Source: an uncultured Lentisphaerota bacterium
Lineage (GTDB): Bacteria > Verrucomicrobiota > Kiritimatiellia > RFP12 > UBA1067
Reading direction: 5' to 3'
Assembly: GCA_900320225.1 (NCBI GenBank)
Contig: ONRL01000045.1
Coordinates: forward strand, 1-50,295
Length of the DNA: 50,295 nt
Shown here: positions 5,749 to 15,411 of the stretch, in pieces
How the letters are laid out: each line of letters opens with the position of its first letter
Numbering within the stretch: the stretch's first letter is position 1
Translations under genes and position numbers: made by a program
The notes under the pieces: model-generated
Database searches by the model: none
Told to the model about the DNA's origin: nothing
Seen by the model: only the letters and a program-made list of their open reading frames with translations

Positions 5749-6366
5749 TCACCTCATTCTCACGGAAGTCCCGTCCGGCGTGACCTGCGCGAAGAAGCGC
5801 TCGCCCGCGCGGACGTTCTCGCCGCGACCGACGAGGCGCAGACGGTTCCAGCCCGATGCATGGAGCCACGGCGGCTTCGATGCGGAGAGTTCCGCGAAAA
5901 CCTCCGCGCCGTTGTCGAGGAAACGCACGTCGTCGATTGCGCCGCCGCGTCCAAGGCGTACGCGGACGACGAGCTCGTGCGCGCCGCAGCCGCCAGCTGG
6001 CGCGGCGGTGACGCGCTCGCCGGTGGCGCCTTCCTCCACGAACCACGCGCCGCAGTCCCAGCCGACCACGAGGTCGCATTCATCAGGGGATAGTGTGCCG
6101 TCTTCAACGGGCGAGACGCCCGTTGTCCCAGTCGCGCCGTCCGTTCCGAACGCCATCTCCACGTTGTTCGACGGCGTGGCGTCGAACGCCAACTTGAAGG
6201 TGAAGTGACGCAGATGCTCCTGCCACGCCGTGAACGGCACGTTGGTGACCGTCTCGGTGTCTAGATACTCCACCGGCGGCAATACGGGCCGCACCGGCGG
6301 AAGCGCTAACGCCACAGACGCGATGAATCCTCCCAGGAAGAGCGGGATGTATTTCGGGGCTAGCAT
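5749..6366 (-). CDS. Small exported protein upstream of the YD-repeat gene
   Basis: 205 codons, starting at the ATG at 6366. It opens with a signal peptide (MLAPKYIPLFLGGFIASVAL) followed by a proline-rich stretch. The mature part has no motif I recognise. Segments such as WDCGAWFVEEG and ELVVRVRLGRGGAIDDVRF suggest a beta-sandwich, but that is inference. It ends just before the YD-repeat frame opens, so the two are probably co-transcribed and may work together at the surface. An in-frame hairpin insert (6105-6131) encodes TGTTGVSPV, the same peptide and phase as the copies in the YD-repeat gene. Translation upstream of 6366 in this frame is antisense noise of the next gene. Confidence 0.75.
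   Translation of the reverse strand: MLAPKYIPLFLGGFIASVALALPPVRPVLPPVEYLDTETVTNVPFTAWQEHLRHFTFKLAFDATPSNNVEMAFGTDGATGTTGVSPVEDGTLSPDECDLVVGWDCGAWFVEEGATGERVTAAPAGGCGAHELVVRVRLGRGGAIDDVRFLDNGAEVFAELSASKPPWLHASGWNRLRLVGRGENVRAGERFFAQVTPDGTSVRMR
6105..6131 (-). repeat. Palindromic microelement, AGA-loop type, in the small exported protein
   Basis: CAACGGGCG-AGA-CGCCCGTTG with tail TCCCAG, identical to 3857 and 5234. In frame as TGTTGVSPV in a different gene and genomic frame. Confidence 0.8.
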
Positions 6367-6374
6367 ACTGTACC

Positions 6375-8654
6375 TCACCTGAAGTCGATCAGCGCCGAGA
6401 CGGCGTCGTGGTCGGACGGGAACTTGCCGCCCGGACGGTCGTCGTGCGTCCGGTACGAGAACACGCGGAACCCATCCGAGACGAAGATGTAGTCGAGCCG
6501 GGAGGTGGACACGGCCTTGTAGCCGTGCGACGAGAGGAGCGGCCCCGCGCGCGGAGTCTCCGTGACGTCGAACGCATCCTTCAGCACGGACTTCGCGAGG
6601 CGGATCGACGTGCCGATGGGATACCGCGCGTCGAACGGCGCCCACGCGTGGATCGACACCGCGCCCTCCATGTCGTTCATGTCTCCCGTGAGGATGACAA
6701 GCTCGCCCCTCTCCTTCGCGGCCTTGATCTTTCCGAGGACAAGCTCCATGCCCTTCACGCGCTGTTCCATGCTTTTCCAGTCCGGATGCTCGCTGAACAC
6801 GCGCACGAGGCGTCCCGTCGCCTTGTGCCGCAGGAGCGCCCACTGGCACACGCGCACGCTGGACGATCCCCAGGTGAGCGTTCCGAAATCGTCTGGCTTC
6901 GCCGACAGCGCGAAGCGCCCGGAGTCGAGCCGCTCAAAGATCTCGGGACGGTACGCGATCGGGTTCGGTCCCTGTTTGTCCGGCCCGTCGGCGAAACGGA
7001 ACTCGGAGAGGTCTGAAACCAGGTCGGGCCACATGGTCTTCGTGACCTCTTGGAAGCCGATCAACTGGAAACCGCCACGCCGGATCACCTCCGCGACGCG
7101 CGGCCGGCGCGCGGACCAGGCGATGTCGCCCGTGTCGATGGGATTCCCCTTTTCGTCCGTGTCGATGCGGATGTTGAAGGACGCAGCGACGAACGAGTCC
7201 TTCGACGGCGCCGGCGGCTCGTCATACTCGATAAGCAGAAACGACTGCGGATCCACGAACAGGCGCAGCTCGTTCGCCGACGACGCGGGCAGCGTCATCT
7301 CCGTGTGCCGCCGGTCGGCGTCCGTGAGGTGCACGGTCACCTCGGGCGGGAACGCGCCGGACGCCAGCCGCACCGTCACGGGGCGGAAGGCTGAGAAGTT
7401 GTCGTCGTCCGCGTACCGGGCGAGGAAGATGGCGCGCTTCCCGCCGGCGCCGCGCGCGGCCGCCGCGTAGATGTCGGGCACGTCAGCGGACGCCTTCACG
7501 GCGGTGGCGCATTTCGCGAACTGTCCCCAGGCGTAGAGGGCGTAGTACGCGGGCAGCGGACGCAGGGTGGTCTTGTCGAACATCCCGTTGAGGTGCGCGT
7601 CCGGCTTCGCGTCGTAGTACATCAGCATGTCCACGGGCGCGTACTGGCAGGCGATCATGCCGGCGGCCACGAGCGCGCCGCCCTTCTGCCCGGCGAGCTG
7701 CGTGATGGAGTAGTGGTAGGCGTCCTGCCAGCTCCGGACGTAGTTCCACTCGTTCAGGATCGACTCGGCGTTCCCGTAGCCGTGGCGCTCCATGATCTCG
7801 CGCGCCTTCTTCGCGCGCGCGACCAGCGTCGCCGGGTCGCGCGTGTAGTTGTGCCAGGAGAAGAAGTCGATCGGCGTGCCGTGCGCGCGCTGGTACTTGA
7901 GGAACCGGTTGCCGTAGTCCATGTGGCCCGCGAGCGCGGGGCCGCCGATCTTCAGCTCGGGGAACTTTCCCTTCAGGTGCTTCGCGGCGATCTCGAAGAA
8001 CGCGAAGAACTGCTCCTCCGTGCCGCCCCACATGCGGGGTAGTCCCGTCTTCCGCCAGTCCATGTCGATGTCCGGCTCGTTCCAGATCTCCCAGTACTTG
8101 ATGTTCCACTCAAAACCGTCCGCCCAGCCCCGGTTGTAGTGACGGATGACGTGCTCGCAGATCCGCGCCCACTTGGCGAAGTCCTTGGGCGGCCACACGT
8201 TGTAGCGCTTCGCGGCGTGCTCGATGCGCTGGCCGAGGCGGAAGAACGGCTCGGTGCCGGCCGCGCGCATGTTGCGCAGGTAGGCGTCGGTCACGGCGAA
8301 GTCGTAGCTCTTCGGGTCGTTTTCGTCCGCGTCGAAGTTCGGGAACATCGCCGTGATGTCGGCCACGTGGTCGCCGCCGTACACGATGTACTCGGCCGCG
8401 TCGTGCGTGCGCGCGAACGGGATGCGCGCGGCGCGGTACTCGGCGAAGTTGCCGTGCCGCGCGTCGGCGCTGCCGCCCACGGGGCCGTTGTTCACGGCGT
8501 TCATCGGCTTCACCGGACCGCAGGCGGCGGCGAAGTCCACCGCCACGGTCGCCGGTTTCGGCTTGCCGCCCTCGCTCGCCGCCGTGAACTCGTCCGCCTG
8601 AGCCGTGCTTGCAATCACCAGCAGCGCCGCCGTGAATGTTCCCAATCTCATCAT
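6375..8654 (-). CDS. GH39-like glycoside hydrolase fused to endonuclease/exonuclease/phosphatase-family domain
   Basis: 759 codons with a signal peptide (MMRLGTFTAALLVIASTAQA). Residues about 40-475 form a clan GH-A barrel resembling GH39 (beta-xylosidase / alpha-iduronidase). The acid/base Glu is E193 in WEIWNEPD and the likely nucleophile is E302 in ILNEWNY. A short beta-domain leads into residues about 487-759, an EEP (DNase I-like) hydrolase domain with N494 (SFNIRID), E536 (GFQEV), GDMND at 657-661 and the catalytic SDHD at 747-750. Both domains keep their catalytic residues. EEP domains cleave phosphodiesters, so the protein may remove sugar from a phosphorylated or nucleotide-linked glycan; that role is inference. 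It lies 9 bp upstream of the small exported protein and 28 bp after the GH20-like gene, in one minus-strand run. Confidence 0.85.
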   Translation of the reverse strand: MMRLGTFTAALLVIASTAQADEFTAASEGGKPKPATVAVDFAAACGPVKPMNAVNNGPVGGSADARHGNFAEYRAARIPFARTHDAAEYIVYGGDHVADITAMFPNFDADENDPKSYDFAVTDAYLRNMRAAGTEPFFRLGQRIEHAAKRYNVWPPKDFAKWARICEHVIRHYNRGWADGFEWNIKYWEIWNEPDIDMDWRKTGLPRMWGGTEEQFFAFFEIAAKHLKGKFPELKIGGPALAGHMDYGNRFLKYQRAHGTPIDFFSWHNYTRDPATLVARAKKAREIMERHGYGNAESILNEWNYVRSWQDAYHYSITQLAGQKGGALVAAGMIACQYAPVDMLMYYDAKPDAHLNGMFDKTTLRPLPAYYALYAWGQFAKCATAVKASADVPDIYAAAARGAGGKRAIFLARYADDDNFSAFRPVTVRLASGAFPPEVTVHLTDADRRHTEMTLPASSANELRLFVDPQSFLLIEYDEPPAPSKDSFVAASFNIRIDTDEKGNPIDTGDIAWSARRPRVAEVIRRGGFQLIGFQEVTKTMWPDLVSDLSEFRFADGPDKQGPNPIAYRPEIFERLDSGRFALSAKPDDFGTLTWGSSSVRVCQWALLRHKATGRLVRVFSEHPDWKSMEQRVKGMELVLGKIKAAKERGELVILTGDMNDMEGAVSIHAWAPFDARYPIGTSIRLAKSVLKDAFDVTETPRAGPLLSSHGYKAVSTSRLDYIFVSDGFRVFSYRTHDDRPGGKFPSDHDAVSALIDFR

Positions 8655-8682
8655 GTCCAGGTTCCTCTTGCAGACAACGGAA

Positions 8683-9729
8683 TTACACGGTGCCCAGCGC
8701 CTTCGCGAAAAGGTCGATGCCTTCGAGATTGGTGTGGTTCGAGGTCTCCAGGCAGTTGGCCCACGGTGCCATCATGAAGCCCTTGAGACGCGCGGCGGAG
8801 ATGTTCTCGCGGCAGAACTTCACGAGGCCGGCGATGCTGTTGTTCACGGCGGGGCCTTCCTTCTTGTAACGATCCGACTTCCAGTTGGACCCGCACGGCA
8901 CCTGGTCGAAACCGGCCTTGTCCAAGTCCAGGAACAGCTTGAGGATCTTCAGGCGACGGGCGTCCGGCTTGTACTTCGAAAGGTCGAATCCGTCGAGATC
9001 GCTGTAGTTCCAGTTGCTCTGGAGCACGCTCTTGGGGCATTTCTCGGTGAAATCGGCGTGGTCCCAGCCGTAGTCGCTCCACATCCACGGACGCATCCCG
9101 TTCGCCTCGACCGTCTTCACGAAGAAGAGGAAGTCGTGCCACCACACCTCGTCCACGCGCACGCACTGGTAGCCGCGCTGGAAGTTCGTCTTCTCCTCGT
9201 CGTAGCCGATGTGCAGGAAGCGCGGATGGTCGAACATCTCCGCCGTGTCCTTGATGACGTCGCGGCACACCTGGTAGTAGGGCTTCGTGGTGAGCATCCG
9301 CGAATACTCGCCCAGCCACGCATCGTGCGCGGCGGAGAAATTGAGCTTCGGGATCGGCTCGAGGCCCAGCTTCTTCAGCCGGCGCACCTCGCCGCGGATC
9401 CAGTCCGGCGAACGCGAACCCGGCAGCGCCAGCTCGGGGTGGCTGGGATAGACGGGGAACTCGCCGAGGTCGATGATGACCATGTTCATCTTCTTGGCGA
9501 CCATGTCGTCCACCAGCAGGTTCCACGCCGTGTCGCTGAACTTCACCCTGTCGTTGCAGAGCCGGCCGTGGGTGAGGGGCCCCTTGATGTCCGGCGGCAG
9601 GGATTCGCCCCACATGTTGAGTCCCCAGTGCAACAGCACCGAGCGGATCTCGTCGGGATTTTTCGCAAACGCCGGGGCCGCGGCACACGCCGCCGCGCCG
9701 GCCAGAAACGCCCTTCTTGTCAGTTCCAT
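8683..9729 (-). CDS. Tat-exported GH20-like TIM-barrel protein
   Basis: 348 codons from the ATG at 9729, chosen because AAGGAGAAGGAC lies just upstream and the product begins with a twin-arginine signal (MELTRRAFLAGAAACAAAPAFA). The mature part looks like a TIM barrel. FLHIGYDEEKTNF matches the Asp-Glu pair of GH20 hexosaminidases (HIGGDE), where the acid acts with substrate assistance, and PWMWSDYGWDH resembles the GH20 Trp-rich strand. It lacks an obvious GH20 N-terminal domain and is shorter than classic hexosaminidases, so substrate is open. It follows galactonate dehydratase by 16 bp and precedes the GH39 fusion in the same direction. Confidence 0.75.
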   Translation of the reverse strand: MELTRRAFLAGAAACAAAPAFAKNPDEIRSVLLHWGLNMWGESLPPDIKGPLTHGRLCNDRVKFSDTAWNLLVDDMVAKKMNMVIIDLGEFPVYPSHPELALPGSRSPDWIRGEVRRLKKLGLEPIPKLNFSAAHDAWLGEYSRMLTTKPYYQVCRDVIKDTAEMFDHPRFLHIGYDEEKTNFQRGYQCVRVDEVWWHDFLFFVKTVEANGMRPWMWSDYGWDHADFTEKCPKSVLQSNWNYSDLDGFDLSKYKPDARRLKILKLFLDLDKAGFDQVPCGSNWKSDRYKKEGPAVNNSIAGLVKFCRENISAARLKGFMMAPWANCLETSNHTNLEGIDLFAKALGTV

Positions 9730-9745: not shown

Positions 9746-10846
9746 TTACCACTCGGCGACGCTGCCGTCAGCATGGCGCCAGACGGGGTTCTTCCAGTTG
9801 TGGGGTGTCTTGTTTTCCTCGATCACGAGATCCTTGTTCACCTCCACGCCGAGGCCGGGCAGCTTCGGCAGCTCGACCCAGCCGTCCGTGAACGCGAAGT
9901 CGTCCTTGTTCGTCACGTAGTCGAGCACGGTCTTGCCCACGTTGTAGTGGATGCCGATCGACTGCTCCTGGATGACGGCGTTGTAGCACGTGGCGTCGAT
10001 TTGCAGGCAGGCCGCGAGCGCGATGGGGGCGGCGATCTTCTTCACTTCAGTGAGGCCGCCCGCGTGGGAGAGGTCGGGCTGGATGATGTCCACGCCGCCC
10101 GCGTTCAGGAGACGCTTGAAGTCGTACTTGGTGTAGAGGCGCTCGCCCGTCGCGATCGGGATGTCGGCGGCGGCGGCGATTTCCTTGAAGTCCTCCATGT
10201 GCTCGCACAGGACCGGCTCCTCGATGAACATCAGCCCGAACGGCTCCAGCTTCTTCGCGAGGACCTTCGCCATCGGCTTGTGGACGCGTCCGTGGAAGTC
10301 GACGGCAATGCCGAAGTCCTTCCCGCAGGCGTCGCGGATCTCCTGCACGCGCGCGAGCACGGCGTCCACCTTGTCGTAGGTGTCCAGCATCTGCAGCTCC
10401 TCGGTCGCGTTCATCTTGACGGCGGTGAAGCCGGCGTCCATCTTCTCCTTCGCGGCGCGGCCCGTGTCGCCGGGACGGTCCCCGCCGATCCACGAGTAGA
10501 CCTTCATGCGGTCGCGGCAGCGTCCGCCCATCAGCTCGTAGCACGGCGCGTTGAACGCCTTGCCCTTGATGTCCCAGAGCGCCTGGTCGATGCCGGAGAG
10601 CGCGCTCGTCATCACGCCGCCGCCGCGGTAGAACCCCGCGCGGTAGATCGTGCTCCAGATGTCCTCGATGCGCGAGGGGTCCTTCCCGACCAGGTAGTCG
10701 CGGTATTCCTCCACGCATGCGAGGACGGCCTTCGCGTGGCCCTCCAGCACCGCTTCGCCCCAGCCGACGAGGCCGGAGTCGGTGACGATTTCAACGAATC
10801 CCCAGCGGGGACGAACGAAGTAGACATTGACCGCAGTAATTTTCAT
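9746..10846 (-). CDS. dgoD: D-galactonate dehydratase-like enolase-superfamily protein lacking the catalytic-His segment
   Basis: 366 codons. It matches E. coli DgoD from end to end as I recall it (GWGE, GIDQALWDIKGK, YSWIGGDRP, DFHGRV, the C-terminal NPVWRHADGSVAEW). DgoD converts galactonate to 2-keto-3-deoxygalactonate. Metal ligands D183, E209 and E235 and the general base H185 are present. After GGLTEVKKIA (residue about 272) the sequence jumps to APIALAACL. E. coli has some 16 extra residues here, carrying the APHCPLGP motif with the second catalytic histidine (H285). The 16-residue length difference from the 382-aa E. coli enzyme fits an in-frame deletion, so the product may be inactive or altered. 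A -10 box (TATACT) ends 6 nt before the ATG, suggesting a leaderless transcript. Confidence 0.88.
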   Translation of the reverse strand: MKITAVNVYFVRPRWGFVEIVTDSGLVGWGEAVLEGHAKAVLACVEEYRDYLVGKDPSRIEDIWSTIYRAGFYRGGGVMTSALSGIDQALWDIKGKAFNAPCYELMGGRCRDRMKVYSWIGGDRPGDTGRAAKEKMDAGFTAVKMNATEELQMLDTYDKVDAVLARVQEIRDACGKDFGIAVDFHGRVHKPMAKVLAKKLEPFGLMFIEEPVLCEHMEDFKEIAAAADIPIATGERLYTKYDFKRLLNAGGVDIIQPDLSHAGGLTEVKKIAAPIALAACLQIDATCYNAVIQEQSIGIHYNVGKTVLDYVTNKDDFAFTDGWVELPKLPGLGVEVNKDLVIEENKTPHNWKNPVWRHADGSVAEW

Positions 10847-10934: not shown

Positions 10935-10936
10935 TC
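10911..10936 (+). repeat. Palindromic microelement, inverted orientation
   Basis: GAGCCGCC-TTCTT-GGCGGCTC on the plus strand, preceded by ATG-G; on the minus strand the loop is AAGAA and the tail TCCAT. It lies across the stop of the HzsA-like gene. Confidence 0.6.
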
Positions 10937-13775
10937 AGTCGTAGACCTTCTTGCCAGCGCGGATCGCCTCGTACACGCGGCGTTCCGCGGCGCGACGGCG
11001 CGCACTGCGCGCATCGCGTTCCTGATCCTTCGCGCACGGTGTGAAGCCTTCCTCCACGTCGCCGCGCGGCATCGCCTTCAGGCGTGCGGCACCTTGTTCG
11101 ATGAGGGCGAGCGCCTGCGCATAGGCGGGCTTGCCTTTCACCCCCTCCAGGATGCGGCTCAGCTCAGGCCTGTCGAAGTTCAGTTGCTCGCGCTGGCGCT
11201 TTGAATGAGTATTCTCGATCTTCACGCCGCAGAGTTTCTCCAGCTGCGCCTGCTCGGCGAACGAGAGCGGCATGCGCCCGCCAGGGTTGTCGGGATAGGC
11301 GCACTCGTAGCGCGGATAGTAGACCGCGTTGATGTCCATCCACGTGATCACGCGGTCACGTTCCTCGTCCGACAGCTTCGCCTTGCCGTGCCCGTAGAGC
11401 GTGCGCGTAAGCTTGGAGGCGTGCGAGCCCCACGAATAGGCCTGTTGGATCTCGGCCGGGCCGCCGCCGATGCATTTGATCGCGCCGGTCGCCCAGAGGT
11501 CCACGTAGCTCGTACAGAAGAACGCCCCGCGGTCGCCGCTCAGGTTCAGCTTGTTTCCCGCCTTCTTGCCGTAGTCGTGGCATGAGACGCAATGCTTCGT
11601 GAAGACGGGCTGCACTTCCTTCTGGAAGCTGAAGAGGCGCGCCGGACCGTACCAGCCGTTCATCTTCGACGGCGGGCGCTGCATGGCGAGCGGACGCTCC
11701 GTCACCGGCGCCGCCTCGCCCACGCGCTTCTCGTGGCAGCCCACGCACCCGTACGTCTCGCCCGGCTGCACGTTCACGCCGCTGCGCATCGACTGCACCA
11801 TCTTCCCCTCCGCGTCGAGCGCCTGGAAGTAGACGAACGTGTTGCCCGGCACCTCGAAGTACGCGCTGCCGTCCGCTTCCACCGGCACCGTGCCGAGGAT
11901 ACGCTTGTTCTCGAACGAGTGCCAGTTCATCGCGGCCGCCTCCTCGCCATGGCCGAACCAGCCGCGCGGACCCGTCCAGTTCCGCTTCGGCGGCGACTCG
12001 ACCACGCGCAGCGCCTTCACCGTCCCCGACTTCACGCCCTTCATGTGCGTGCCGATGTAGACGTTCTGCAGGTAGAACCTCCCAGGCGCGTCCGGCGCGT
12101 CGAAGTTGCGCTGCTGGCTCTGCACGACCGGCTTCTTCACGGAACGCAGGATGACGGGCGACCAGATGCCGGGCGCGTCCGCGAGGATCTCCGTCTCGTT
12201 TCCGTCGAGGTCGAGGTAGACGAGCGACATCTCGCCGTTCGCGCGCCCGGTCTGGCGCACGGCGAGGAAATGCGCCTCGTCGATCGGGAACGGGTCGGCG
12301 TACTTGCACACGAGCGGCTTCGAGGAGTCGAAGTCCTCCTTGCCGCCTGCGTGGATGCGGTCGCGGTAGGACGCCGGCCACGTGCGCAGCACGGGTTCCC
12401 GTCCGTCCACGCCGAGCGAGCGGTCGATGAGGCCCAGCGCGCCCCACGGACGGTCGTGGCAGCTCCCGAGGATCGCGATCGCCTTCGAGGAGTCGCCGCC
12501 CACGGCGCGCGCGTTGATCACACCGCCCGGGCTCGTGGTGTTGTTGCCCCACCAGACCGCGTGGCGCGTGCCGTCGGGGTTGCATGTCCAGAGTCCCTGC
12601 GCGTCGCCGAAGTCGCGGTCCACGTATTCCCAGCGGTCGTAGAGCACGCGCCCGTCGGGCAGGATGGAGGAATGTCCCTCAAAGAGCGTCGAGACGCCGA
12701 TCTGGTGGATGTTCGCGCCGTCCGCCTCCATGCGGTAGAGGTTGCACATGATGTGGCGGTTGCACATGCAGTACTTCGGGTCGCGCGTGGACGAGAACAC
12801 GATGCTGCCGTCCGGCAGGAATGCCGGATCGATGTCGCTCACGCCCTTCGCGCGCGTGAGCTGCTTCAGGCCCATGCCGTCCGCGTTCACGACGTAGATA
12901 TGATAGTCGTCTTCACGGCCGGCGCGCATCGAGAACACGATCCGCTTCCCGTCCCAGTCCACCTCCGGATCGCGGATGGTGCGTCCTTCCTTCTCCGGCA
13001 CGATCACGCGCACCTTGCCCGTCGTTGGATTCCACGCCTTGAGCGCGCCCTGCGTGCAGTAACTGCGTTCGTTGATCTCGCCGCACTGGAAGAGCGTCGC
13101 CGTGTTGTGGTGGTCCGCGCGGAACGCGGCGCGCGTCACGTACACGACCTCCGGCACGGACGCGAGCGCCCTCTTCGCGGCGTCCCTCGCGCCGGGTTTC
13201 TCCACGCTACGGATGTAGTCGTTGAACGGTGACGGACGCGGACGCGCCGCGAAATCGGACGCGCCGCGCACGCCCTCGCATGCAACGTCGTCTACCGTTA
13301 CGTGCCCCCAACTGCCGGTCGCATCGTCCACCACGCGAAAGTAGACATCCTTCCCCACCGCCTGCGGCACGTTCCACGTCACCGTGCGCATCCGCTCGCC
13401 GTCCTCGCCCGTCGCCGAGGCGAGCGCCTTGCCCGTCGCGCGCTCCACAAGCTCGAAACGCGCGTGGCGTCCGCCGCCGATCTTGAAGGTGACGGTCGGG
13501 CTCGTCAGCTTGATCGTCGGCGACTCGATCAGCCCCGTCTGCCGGTCATTCGGACGGTTCTGCGCGTTCTCAAGCGTCGAGACGAAGTACGTGCCGCCCT
13601 TCGTGTACGGTTTTCCCGTGTTGTGCTCTTTCGCGAGATCGGTCACGGGATGCGCGAACGCGCCCTGCGTCACCTGCCATCCCTGCAGGTCGCCCGTCTC
13701 GAAGTCGTAGACGATCCGTTCCGCCAGCGCACACGCACTCAGCGCAAGCATCGTTGAAATCAAAAGTCTCTTCAT
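10935..13775 (-). CDS. HzsA-like exported protein with two haem-c motifs
   Basis: 946 codons with a signal peptide (MKRLLISTMLALSACALA). Residues about 20-170 form a carbohydrate-binding-like jelly roll (YDFETGDLQGW, FRVVDDATGSWGHVTVDD). Residues about 200-640 form a beta-propeller with TolB-like blades (DPEVDWDGKRIVFSMR, DPAFLPDGSIVFSSTRD) and the CMCNRHIMCNLYRM cysteine cluster. The C-terminal part has two CxxCH haem sites, GCVGCH (C677-H681) and CVSCH (C729-H733). This order matches proteins annotated as HzsA-related, named for the hydrazine synthase alpha subunit. In non-anammox bacteria these are of unknown function; a role in anammox is not implied. AGGTGAAAC precedes the ATG. It lies 44 bp after the dehydrogenase/kinase remnant. 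Confidence 0.82.
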   Translation of the reverse strand: MKRLLISTMLALSACALAERIVYDFETGDLQGWQVTQGAFAHPVTDLAKEHNTGKPYTKGGTYFVSTLENAQNRPNDRQTGLIESPTIKLTSPTVTFKIGGGRHARFELVERATGKALASATGEDGERMRTVTWNVPQAVGKDVYFRVVDDATGSWGHVTVDDVACEGVRGASDFAARPRPSPFNDYIRSVEKPGARDAAKRALASVPEVVYVTRAAFRADHHNTATLFQCGEINERSYCTQGALKAWNPTTGKVRVIVPEKEGRTIRDPEVDWDGKRIVFSMRAGREDDYHIYVVNADGMGLKQLTRAKGVSDIDPAFLPDGSIVFSSTRDPKYCMCNRHIMCNLYRMEADGANIHQIGVSTLFEGHSSILPDGRVLYDRWEYVDRDFGDAQGLWTCNPDGTRHAVWWGNNTTSPGGVINARAVGGDSSKAIAILGSCHDRPWGALGLIDRSLGVDGREPVLRTWPASYRDRIHAGGKEDFDSSKPLVCKYADPFPIDEAHFLAVRQTGRANGEMSLVYLDLDGNETEILADAPGIWSPVILRSVKKPVVQSQQRNFDAPDAPGRFYLQNVYIGTHMKGVKSGTVKALRVVESPPKRNWTGPRGWFGHGEEAAAMNWHSFENKRILGTVPVEADGSAYFEVPGNTFVYFQALDAEGKMVQSMRSGVNVQPGETYGCVGCHEKRVGEAAPVTERPLAMQRPPSKMNGWYGPARLFSFQKEVQPVFTKHCVSCHDYGKKAGNKLNLSGDRGAFFCTSYVDLWATGAIKCIGGGPAEIQQAYSWGSHASKLTRTLYGHGKAKLSDEERDRVITWMDINAVYYPRYECAYPDNPGGRMPLSFAEQAQLEKLCGVKIENTHSKRQREQLNFDRPELSRILEGVKGKPAYAQALALIEQGAARLKAMPRGDVEEGFTPCAKDQERDARSARRRAAERRVYEAIRAGKKVYD

Positions 13776-13819
13776 AGTTTCACCTGTTTCATGTCATCTG
13801 TCTTCTTCTTGAAAAGCTG

Positions 13820-14228
13820 TCACGTCTGTGCCCATTCCCCCAACTTGTCGGTGAGCAACCGCCAACGGGCGTAGCGGCGAGCGTAGTCGGCGGCGGCCTC
13901 TGGGTCTGGCGCGGCCTCCGCGTCGGCATGCGAGATCGAATCGAGGATCGAGAAGTCGTCCCACACGCCCGCGCCCACGCCGGCCACGAGCGCGGCGCCG
14001 AGGGCCGCCGCCTGCCGCCTCCACCACGCCCACCACGAGGTCGGCCCCGAACGCCTTCGCCGCGTCCAGCAGTCCCTTCAGCGCGGCCAGCGTGCCAGCC
14101 ACGCTCGCGTCGCCGTATGAGACGACGAGCGCGCGCTTGCCCAGTTTCGCGGCCTCTTCGCCCGCCTGCTTCAGCGTCCCGAGGCCGAACACGACCTTCA
14201 CGGGATTGTGGTATGTAAAACTGTTCAT
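13820..14228 (-). pseudogene. Chimeric remnant: Fe-alcohol dehydrogenase N-terminus joined out of frame to FGGY-kinase C-terminus
   Basis: The ATG at 14228 opens an iron-containing alcohol dehydrogenase (FTYHNPVKVVFGLGTLKQAG, then GKRALVVSYG) for about 70 codons. Near 14010-14022 the similarity stops. In the next frame the sequence continues as the last 65 or so residues of an FGGY carbohydrate kinase such as xylulokinase (AAALGAALVAGVGAGVWDDF, then DYARRYARWRLL), ending at the TGA at 13820. Both pieces are in native order and on the same strand, so one deletion inside a dehydrogenase-kinase operon explains them. Reading the dehydrogenase frame onward gives an Arg-rich tail that ends at 13794. 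The product should have neither activity. Confidence 0.8.
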
Positions 14229-14421
14229 CGTTTTTTCCTTTTAACGAGTCATTCGGTACTTCAGCCTATAGTTACAACTCTCAAGCAAGCACAATTCCAC
14301 AAATCGGAGAGTTATAACTCTTTTAGATTTTGAGCCTAGCATACCAAATCTGACCAAGAAGGTCAACATCTGGAGAAAACACTGGGACGAATGCGATCGA
14401 TATGGTATAATTCCGTTCACT
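14229..14421. promoter_or_regulatory. Divergent regulatory gap with paired palindromes
   Basis: AT-rich compared with its surroundings, between the divergent dehydrogenase remnant and mtnA. It holds a perfect 14-bp palindrome AGAGTTATAACTCT (14308-14321) and a related imperfect one, AGTTACAACT (14270-14279), about 40 bp apart centre to centre. That is close to four helical turns, as for a dimeric repressor or activator with two sites. The mtnA promoter lies at the right end. Confidence 0.55.
14383..14411 (+). promoter_or_regulatory. mtnA promoter, leaderless type
   Basis: TATAAT at 14406-14411 is preceded by ATGG, making an extended -10. The -35 region is weak (TGGGAC at 14383). The ATG is at 14422, so transcription should begin about 3-4 nt before the start codon and no Shine-Dalgarno is available. 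Confidence 0.55.
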
Positions 14422-15411
14422 ATGAAAGTCAGGACAGAGTCCGGCACGCAAGAGCTACGTGCCGTGTGGTTCGAGAACGGACACCTGCGGTTGATCGACC
14501 AGCGCCGTCTGCCGCAGACGCTTTCAATCGTCGAGACGGCGGACTGGCGCCGCGCCACGGAGATGATCCGGGACATGACCGTACGCGGTGCGCCCGCCAT
14601 CGGCATCACCGCGGCCTACGCGATGGCGCTCGCCCTCCGCGCAGGCGAGGACGCCGCTACCGCCGCCACGTACGTGAAGTCTGCCCGCCCCACCGCCTAC
14701 GACCTCTTCTACGCCGTCGACCGAATTGTGGCCGCATGTGCCGCCGGAGCAGACCCAGCCGCTGCCGCCAACGCCTATGCGGACGAGATCGTCGAGAAAT
14801 GCCGGGCGATCGGCCTCCATGGAGCCCGGCTCATCACCGATGGCATGAAGGTGATGACGCACTGCAACGCCGGGGCGCTCGCAACCGGCGACTGGGGCAC
14901 GGCCCTGGCCCCCCTGCGCGTGGCGCACGACGAAGGCCGCCGCCTGTTCGTTTACGTCTCCGAAACGCGACCGCGCCTGCAGGGCATGCAGCTCACGGCC
15001 TGGGAACTCGTCCAGGAGGGCATTGACCACGCCATCATCCCCGACGGCGCCTCGGCCCGCTATCTTTCCGACGGCGTGGGGCTGGTCATCACGGGCGCGG
15101 ACCGCATCGCGGCGAACGGCGACTTCGCGAACAAGATCGGCACGCTCGACAAGGCGATCCTCGCACGGCATTTCGGCGTACCGTTCTACGTGGCCGCCCC
15201 GGTCTCGACCTTCGACCCCAACGCCGCCAACGGCCAGGCCATTCCCATCGAATACCGGGCCGAGGAAGAAGTGACCTGCCTGGCGGGGCAGCGCCTTGCG
15301 CCGACTGGATCGCGCGCGCTCAACCCGTCGTTCGACGTAACGCCGGGCGAACTTGTTACCGGCTTCATCACCGAACGCGGGATCTTCCCGCCGGGTCATC
15401 TGCCCGCATAG
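14422..15411 (+). CDS. mtnA: S-methyl-5-thioribose-1-phosphate isomerase
   Basis: 329 codons, a normal length for the family. MtnA isomerises 5-methylthioribose-1-phosphate to the ribulose form in methionine salvage, in the cytosol. Family landmarks are VRGAPAIG (54-61), MTHCNAG with catalytic C148, TGADRIAANGD with D227, and NKIGT (237-241). The C-terminal block (NPSFDVTPGELVTGFITERG) is also typical. Paralogues of the eIF2B-like fold isomerise ribose-1-phosphate, but the CN(A)G and GADR contexts fit MtnA. It stands alone on the plus strand. Its stop is 15 bp from the end of the convergent Gfo/Idh gene. Confidence 0.9.
   Translation: MKVRTESGTQELRAVWFENGHLRLIDQRRLPQTLSIVETADWRRATEMIRDMTVRGAPAIGITAAYAMALALRAGEDAATAATYVKSARPTAYDLFYAVDRIVAACAAGADPAAAANAYADEIVEKCRAIGLHGARLITDGMKVMTHCNAGALATGDWGTALAPLRVAHDEGRRLFVYVSETRPRLQGMQLTAWELVQEGIDHAIIPDGASARYLSDGVGLVITGADRIAANGDFANKIGTLDKAILARHFGVPFYVAAPVSTFDPNAANGQAIPIEYRAEEEVTCLAGQRLAPTGSRALNPSFDVTPGELVTGFITERGIFPPGHLPA

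Follow-up and report, generated by a model that had tools for sequence, protein, structure and literature searches.

Two gene remnants between mtnA and an HzsA-like gene

The window, by which we mean the entire 50,295-nucleotide stretch of DNA that was analysed, is a contig of a 5.2 Mb MAG (95% complete, 351 contigs). The locus of interest lies on its minus strand, bounded upstream by the divergent mtnA gene for S-methyl-5-thioribose-1-phosphate isomerase (14422..15411, plus strand) and followed by a gene for an HzsA-like protein (10935..13775, minus) and, downstream, one for galactonate dehydratase (9746..10846, minus). The HzsA-like protein carries the HZS_alpha middle domain (PF18582) and a c-type cytochrome domain; it has several paralogues per genome in the genus, and at 60.6 bits it scores far below the equivalog cut-off of 800 bits. 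Upstream of its gene, a mechanical list of open reading frames reports one frame of 144 codons (13794..14228, minus). An earlier note on this DNA had claimed that an alcohol dehydrogenase (ADH) is joined here to the tail of a sugar kinase, in different frames, at about position 14015.

The first part of the frame is the remnant of an Fe-type ADH (Fe-ADH). Its N-terminal part matches Pfam PF00465 (E = 5e-6), and codons 1-57 (14058..14228, minus, with the start codon at 14228) share 95% amino acid identity with the intact ADH of genome G005 (E = 4.2e-27; tblastn E = 1.5e-29) and 70-93% with those of other relatives. Codons ~84-95 follow (14024..14057, minus) and end just ahead of the GGGS motif of the nucleotide-binding domain. 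Relatives align to this ADH part as two separate pieces, 14014-14068 and 14051-14228, and carry the sequence TGGACGCGGCG twice, at a spacing of exactly 78 nt in G011 and G013; the window retains one copy (14058..14068, minus). The missing 78 nt correspond to 26 codons (ADH codons 58-83), in frame and flanked by 11-bp direct repeats, and the single remaining repeat is the scar of their deletion.

Past ~14024 the ADH frame turns arginine-rich and has no conserved counterpart, while the adjacent frame reads QAAALGAALVAGVGAGVWDDFSILDS...LGEWAQT followed by a stop, which is the C-terminus of an FGGY kinase. This kinase remnant (13820..14019, minus) covers the 64 C-terminal codons together with the original stop (13820-13822). 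It matches NCBIfam FGGY families (best E = 1.2e-5), shares 69% amino acid identity with the intact kinase of G031 (E = 2.8e-20) and 84-86% nucleotide identity with the kinase tails of G009-G013 and G006, and returned no Pfam match. Pfam, NCBIfam and the comparison with relatives between them confirm the joining of ADH to a kinase tail, whose frame indeed differs from that of the ADH part; the junction exists as well, with its position corrected to 14019..14024 (minus), kinase homology starting at 14019 and ADH homology running to 14024. No clear direct repeat was found at this junction, a G-rich stretch in which homology never exceeds a few bases. Neither remnant can encode its enzyme: the ADH part, despite its PF00465 match, is without the GGGS motif and the entire metal-binding domain (PF25137), and the kinase part, from codon ~431 to the end, has lost both FGGY_N and FGGY_C save the extreme C-terminus.

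A promoter-like site, TTGACC-17-TATGCT in the element TTGACCTTCTTGGTCAGATTTGGTA (14338..14366, minus), faces the scar and the HzsA-like gene. Only 18 bases separate the stop of the scar frame (13794) from the HzsA-like start (13775), so what remains after the deletion would plausibly still be an intact transcription unit. The promoter-like element, TTGACCTTCTTGGT-N4-TTTGGTA (14342-14366), occurs as a single copy in its own genome. Contig C310 of G005 holds two close copies (L099 1490-1541 and 9407-9447) as well as an open reading frame for a GntR-like regulator, which suggests that the element may serve a shared regulon as its operator or promoter.

The earlier note had also described an intact-looking regulatory palindrome pair next to the lost sugar module. 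The pair is real (14268-14281 and 14308-14321, the latter reading AGAGTTATAACTCT, 40 bp apart) and is the sole such pair in its own genome, while its tie to the module finds no support among the retrieved loci: none of them has the pair upstream of an intact ADH gene, and the only related pair, in G008 (C310, L100 122-173), sits just upstream of the start of an AAA_14-like ATPase. As it is not conserved upstream of intact module copies, we rejected it as the module's operator. Among AAA_14/ATPase_2-type matches in the window's own genome (L112-L138), at least 20 of 27 score above the family cut-off, and long inverted repeats, all different in sequence, occur at most 150 bp upstream of the ATPases at L113, L117, L118, L119, L127, L128, L131 and L134. 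The ATPases found beside the module in G009, G011 (L027 8960-9096) and G004 (L041 7863-8030) have an inverted repeat upstream too. Judged from these repeats, AAA_14-type ATPase genes seem to possess palindromic operators of their own.

The intact module in relatives and the missing stretch

Our DNA search for the two scar halves covered 59 relatives; those that are publicly named are MAGs labelled as Kiritimatiellae or as related Verrucomicrobia and Lentisphaerae, from goat omasum, cattle and sheep rumen, and roe deer. Both halves were matched in several genomes of the same genus at 84-88% nucleotide identity, and the two correspond by homology to separate genes in a single intact module, with matching order and strand. 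This module consists of an Fe-ADH, a DeoC-type aldolase and an FGGY kinase and is contiguous in G031 (L033 6249-9693; genes at 6249-7442, 7439-8119 and 8203-9693, respectively) and in G005 (L026 320-3995; 320-1513, 1518-2186, and 2664 to the contig end). Compared with these two genomes, and computed from the coordinates, the window lacks ~2.96 and ~3.35 kb, extending from ADH codon ~95 to kinase codon ~431 and including the whole aldolase. The proposed internal deletion in sensible operon order is thus borne out by G031 and G005, with three amendments: the deletion, put at roughly 2 kb or more, measures ~3.0-3.4 kb; the supposed dehydrogenase-kinase sugar module does hold these two genes but has three in all, the DeoC aldolase lying between; and a second deletion, the in-frame loss of 78 nt within the ADH piece, had been overlooked.

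The intact ADH matches PF00465 and PF25137, the aldolase TIGR00126 above its cut-off, and the kinase FGGY_N and FGGY_C. By family profiles and solved-structure searches the kinase is nearest to xylulokinase and the ADH to YqhD/butanol dehydrogenase; the structure searches on the module proteins returned the family and not the substrate. In G053, which belongs to the same order and another family, the three genes also lie together but are arranged DeoC, kinase, ADH, and their clustering in so distant a relative supports a functional unit. In G009 (L025 10516-11997) and G011 (L027 9096-10577) an AAA ATPase gene is inserted between the module's ADH and DeoC. We rejected the apparent 11.5 kb gap between ADH and kinase in G009 as the window's parent state, because the module there is intact, though rearranged and interrupted by other genes. 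Two further candidate scars, a truncated kinase on contig C203 of G008 and a kinase tail on contig C133 of G006, were rejected as contig ends.

On this comparison, one deletion would have joined ADH codon ~95 to kinase codon ~431, and the 78-nt deletion between direct repeats would have removed ADH codons 58-83 either as a separate step or as part of one complex template-switching event; since the two junctions lie ~35-40 nt apart, a single complex event and two steps are equally possible. Slippage or joining at short homology is the probable mechanism.

The deleted stretch is absent elsewhere in the window's own genome. In this 95% complete MAG we found no further close copy of any of the three, and the best matches to the intact genes are paralogues at 31-39% amino acid identity (kinase 31%, DeoC 35%, ADH 39%). 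Across the genus, a close ADH (87-100% amino acid identity) is present in 10 of 16 genomes, the copies in G001 and G002 being truncated where their contigs end; two of the 16, the window's genome and G004, carry a scar, and the ADH is missing in the remaining four, although several of these genomes are incomplete MAGs and absence from a single one is weak evidence. No genome of the same species with an intact module was found.

A different scar in a sister species

In G004 (C36, L041 6283-6405, minus strand), ADH codons 1-23 are fused in frame to the tail of DeoC, the fusion reading MNGFTYRNPVRVVFGLGTLKQAG up to the junction and ARRFGVGVNSVRSIIVEVK from there to the stop. The junction falls at the 7-bp sequence GCCGGCG, a short direct repeat present in both parent genes, and the scar lies upstream of the orthologous HzsA-like gene (91% amino acid identity). 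The window retains ADH codons that are missing in G004, and G004 retains a DeoC tail that is missing in the window, so neither scar can be derived from the other. Scars that are not nested in this way imply at least two losses of the module at that place, and the window's species and its sister species would each have lost it separately.

The frame in the window is very probably the scar of a lost Fe-ADH/DeoC/FGGY operon that formerly had the HzsA-like gene on one side and the promoter region of the divergent mtnA on the other. This reading draws on the two halves, their order, their intact counterparts, the absence of another copy and the independent scar in G004, all of them visible in the sequences compared; that an intact module once occupied this exact place we infer from the order of the remnants and from G004. 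Counting against a module at this site, intact relatives carry it away from the upstream side of the HzsA-like orthologue. The earlier note had proposed looking in relatives for an intact dehydrogenase plus FGGY kinase upstream of the HzsA-like gene; the intact module was found, but not in that position. Genomes G005, G013 and G001 have an intact ADH downstream of an HzsA-like paralogue, and among relatives only the scarred sibling G004 has remains of the module upstream of the orthologous gene. The failure to find an intact module within the same species and the missing repeat at the main junction also weigh against the reading as a lost operon. That upstream slot is itself variable, holding an ATPase in G003, an ATPase and the scar in G004, a low-molecular-weight phosphatase in G007 and another large open reading frame in G005.

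Such variability between species, together with the location of intact modules elsewhere, would be expected if the two fragments had arrived separately at a site that never held the whole module. The fragments, however, represent the opening of the module's first gene and the close of its final one, arranged and oriented as in the module, and G004 preserves another set of module ends at this locus; we find separate arrival hardly credible. A faulty assembly could likewise imitate a deletion, if the assembler had merged two parts of one intact module, or parts of two strains, and lost the 3 kb between them. The MAG is divided into 351 contigs and the junction is G-rich and of low complexity, both of which favour this explanation. 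Yet the homology at the junction amounts to a few bases and the repeat at the second scar to 11 bp, both shorter than usual assembler k-mers, which counts against an artefact, as do the failure to find the missing 3 kb anywhere else in the bin and the presence, in an independent MAG (G004), of a different scar at the same locus. We consider an artefact unlikely.

Age and meaning of the loss

The pN/pS of the window's ADH remnant against close relatives is 0.09-0.15 (57 codons), compared with 0.08-0.22 for intact close copies among themselves, and that of the kinase tail against its closest relatives is ~0.23 (62 codons), compared with 0.04-0.31 for intact close copies. Within these small samples neither remnant shows signs of prolonged neutral drift, and values inside the range of intact copies suggest that the window's deletion is recent or nearly so. 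Low values might also be expected if the truncated ADH frame were kept for use, as a leader coupling transcription or translation into the HzsA-like gene, an arrangement that its end at 13794 close to the HzsA-like start at 13775, the promoter-like site upstream and the retention of the ADH 5' end in both scars would fit. A recent deletion, however, explains the low pN/pS equally well, other genes separate the scar from the HzsA-like gene in G004, and the out-of-frame half is without a conserved counterpart, which makes a retained leader very improbable.

Read as the scar of a lost operon, the locus recalls several known systems. The fucose-type pathway comprises an FGGY kinase (FucK), a class II aldolase (FucA) and an Fe-ADH (FucO), and the module follows the same enzymatic scheme, with a kinase of the FGGY family, an aldolase and an aldehyde reductase of the Fe type; by this analogy the kinase would act first, then the aldolase, then the reductase. 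It differs in that a DeoC-family aldolase (TIGR00126) replaces the class II enzyme, and in that its kinase is nearest xylulokinase and its ADH nearest YqhD/butanol dehydrogenase. We found no description of an Fe-ADH/DeoC/FGGY module in the literature, and for these Kiritimatiellae nothing beyond community surveys. A survey of prokaryotic pseudogenes reportedly finds truncated, non-functional gene remains with known intact relatives, and the remnants in the window are of this kind; unlike those surveyed, they result from a single deletion across three operon genes, and a second species has its own deletion of the same module. In Haloquadratum walsbyi, deletions occur between short direct repeats of 4-20 bp (PMC3119063), likewise leaving one repeat copy and precise scars that are found by comparing near relatives. 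Here the repeats are of 11 bp (78-nt scar) and 7 bp (G004), with no clear repeat at the window's main junction, the bacterium belongs to the gut Kiritimatiellae, and the comparison runs across species and not strains.

The biology is ordinary, short-repeat deletion and operon decay, and the class of mechanism is already well known, with none that is new. The deletions in the window and in G004 both spare the 5' end of the operon and the genes downstream; selection for repeated loss of a costly module within the genus, with the expression of its neighbours kept, is conceivable but rather doubtful. What the locus offers is a cleanly resolved case of uncultured gut bacteria that recently lost an operon, with the same module lost independently in a sister species, and an example in which the reading of an operon scar from one genome is directly testable from relatives. 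The combination of a DeoC-family aldolase, an FGGY kinase and an Fe-ADH would in addition represent an uncharacterised candidate sugar pathway.
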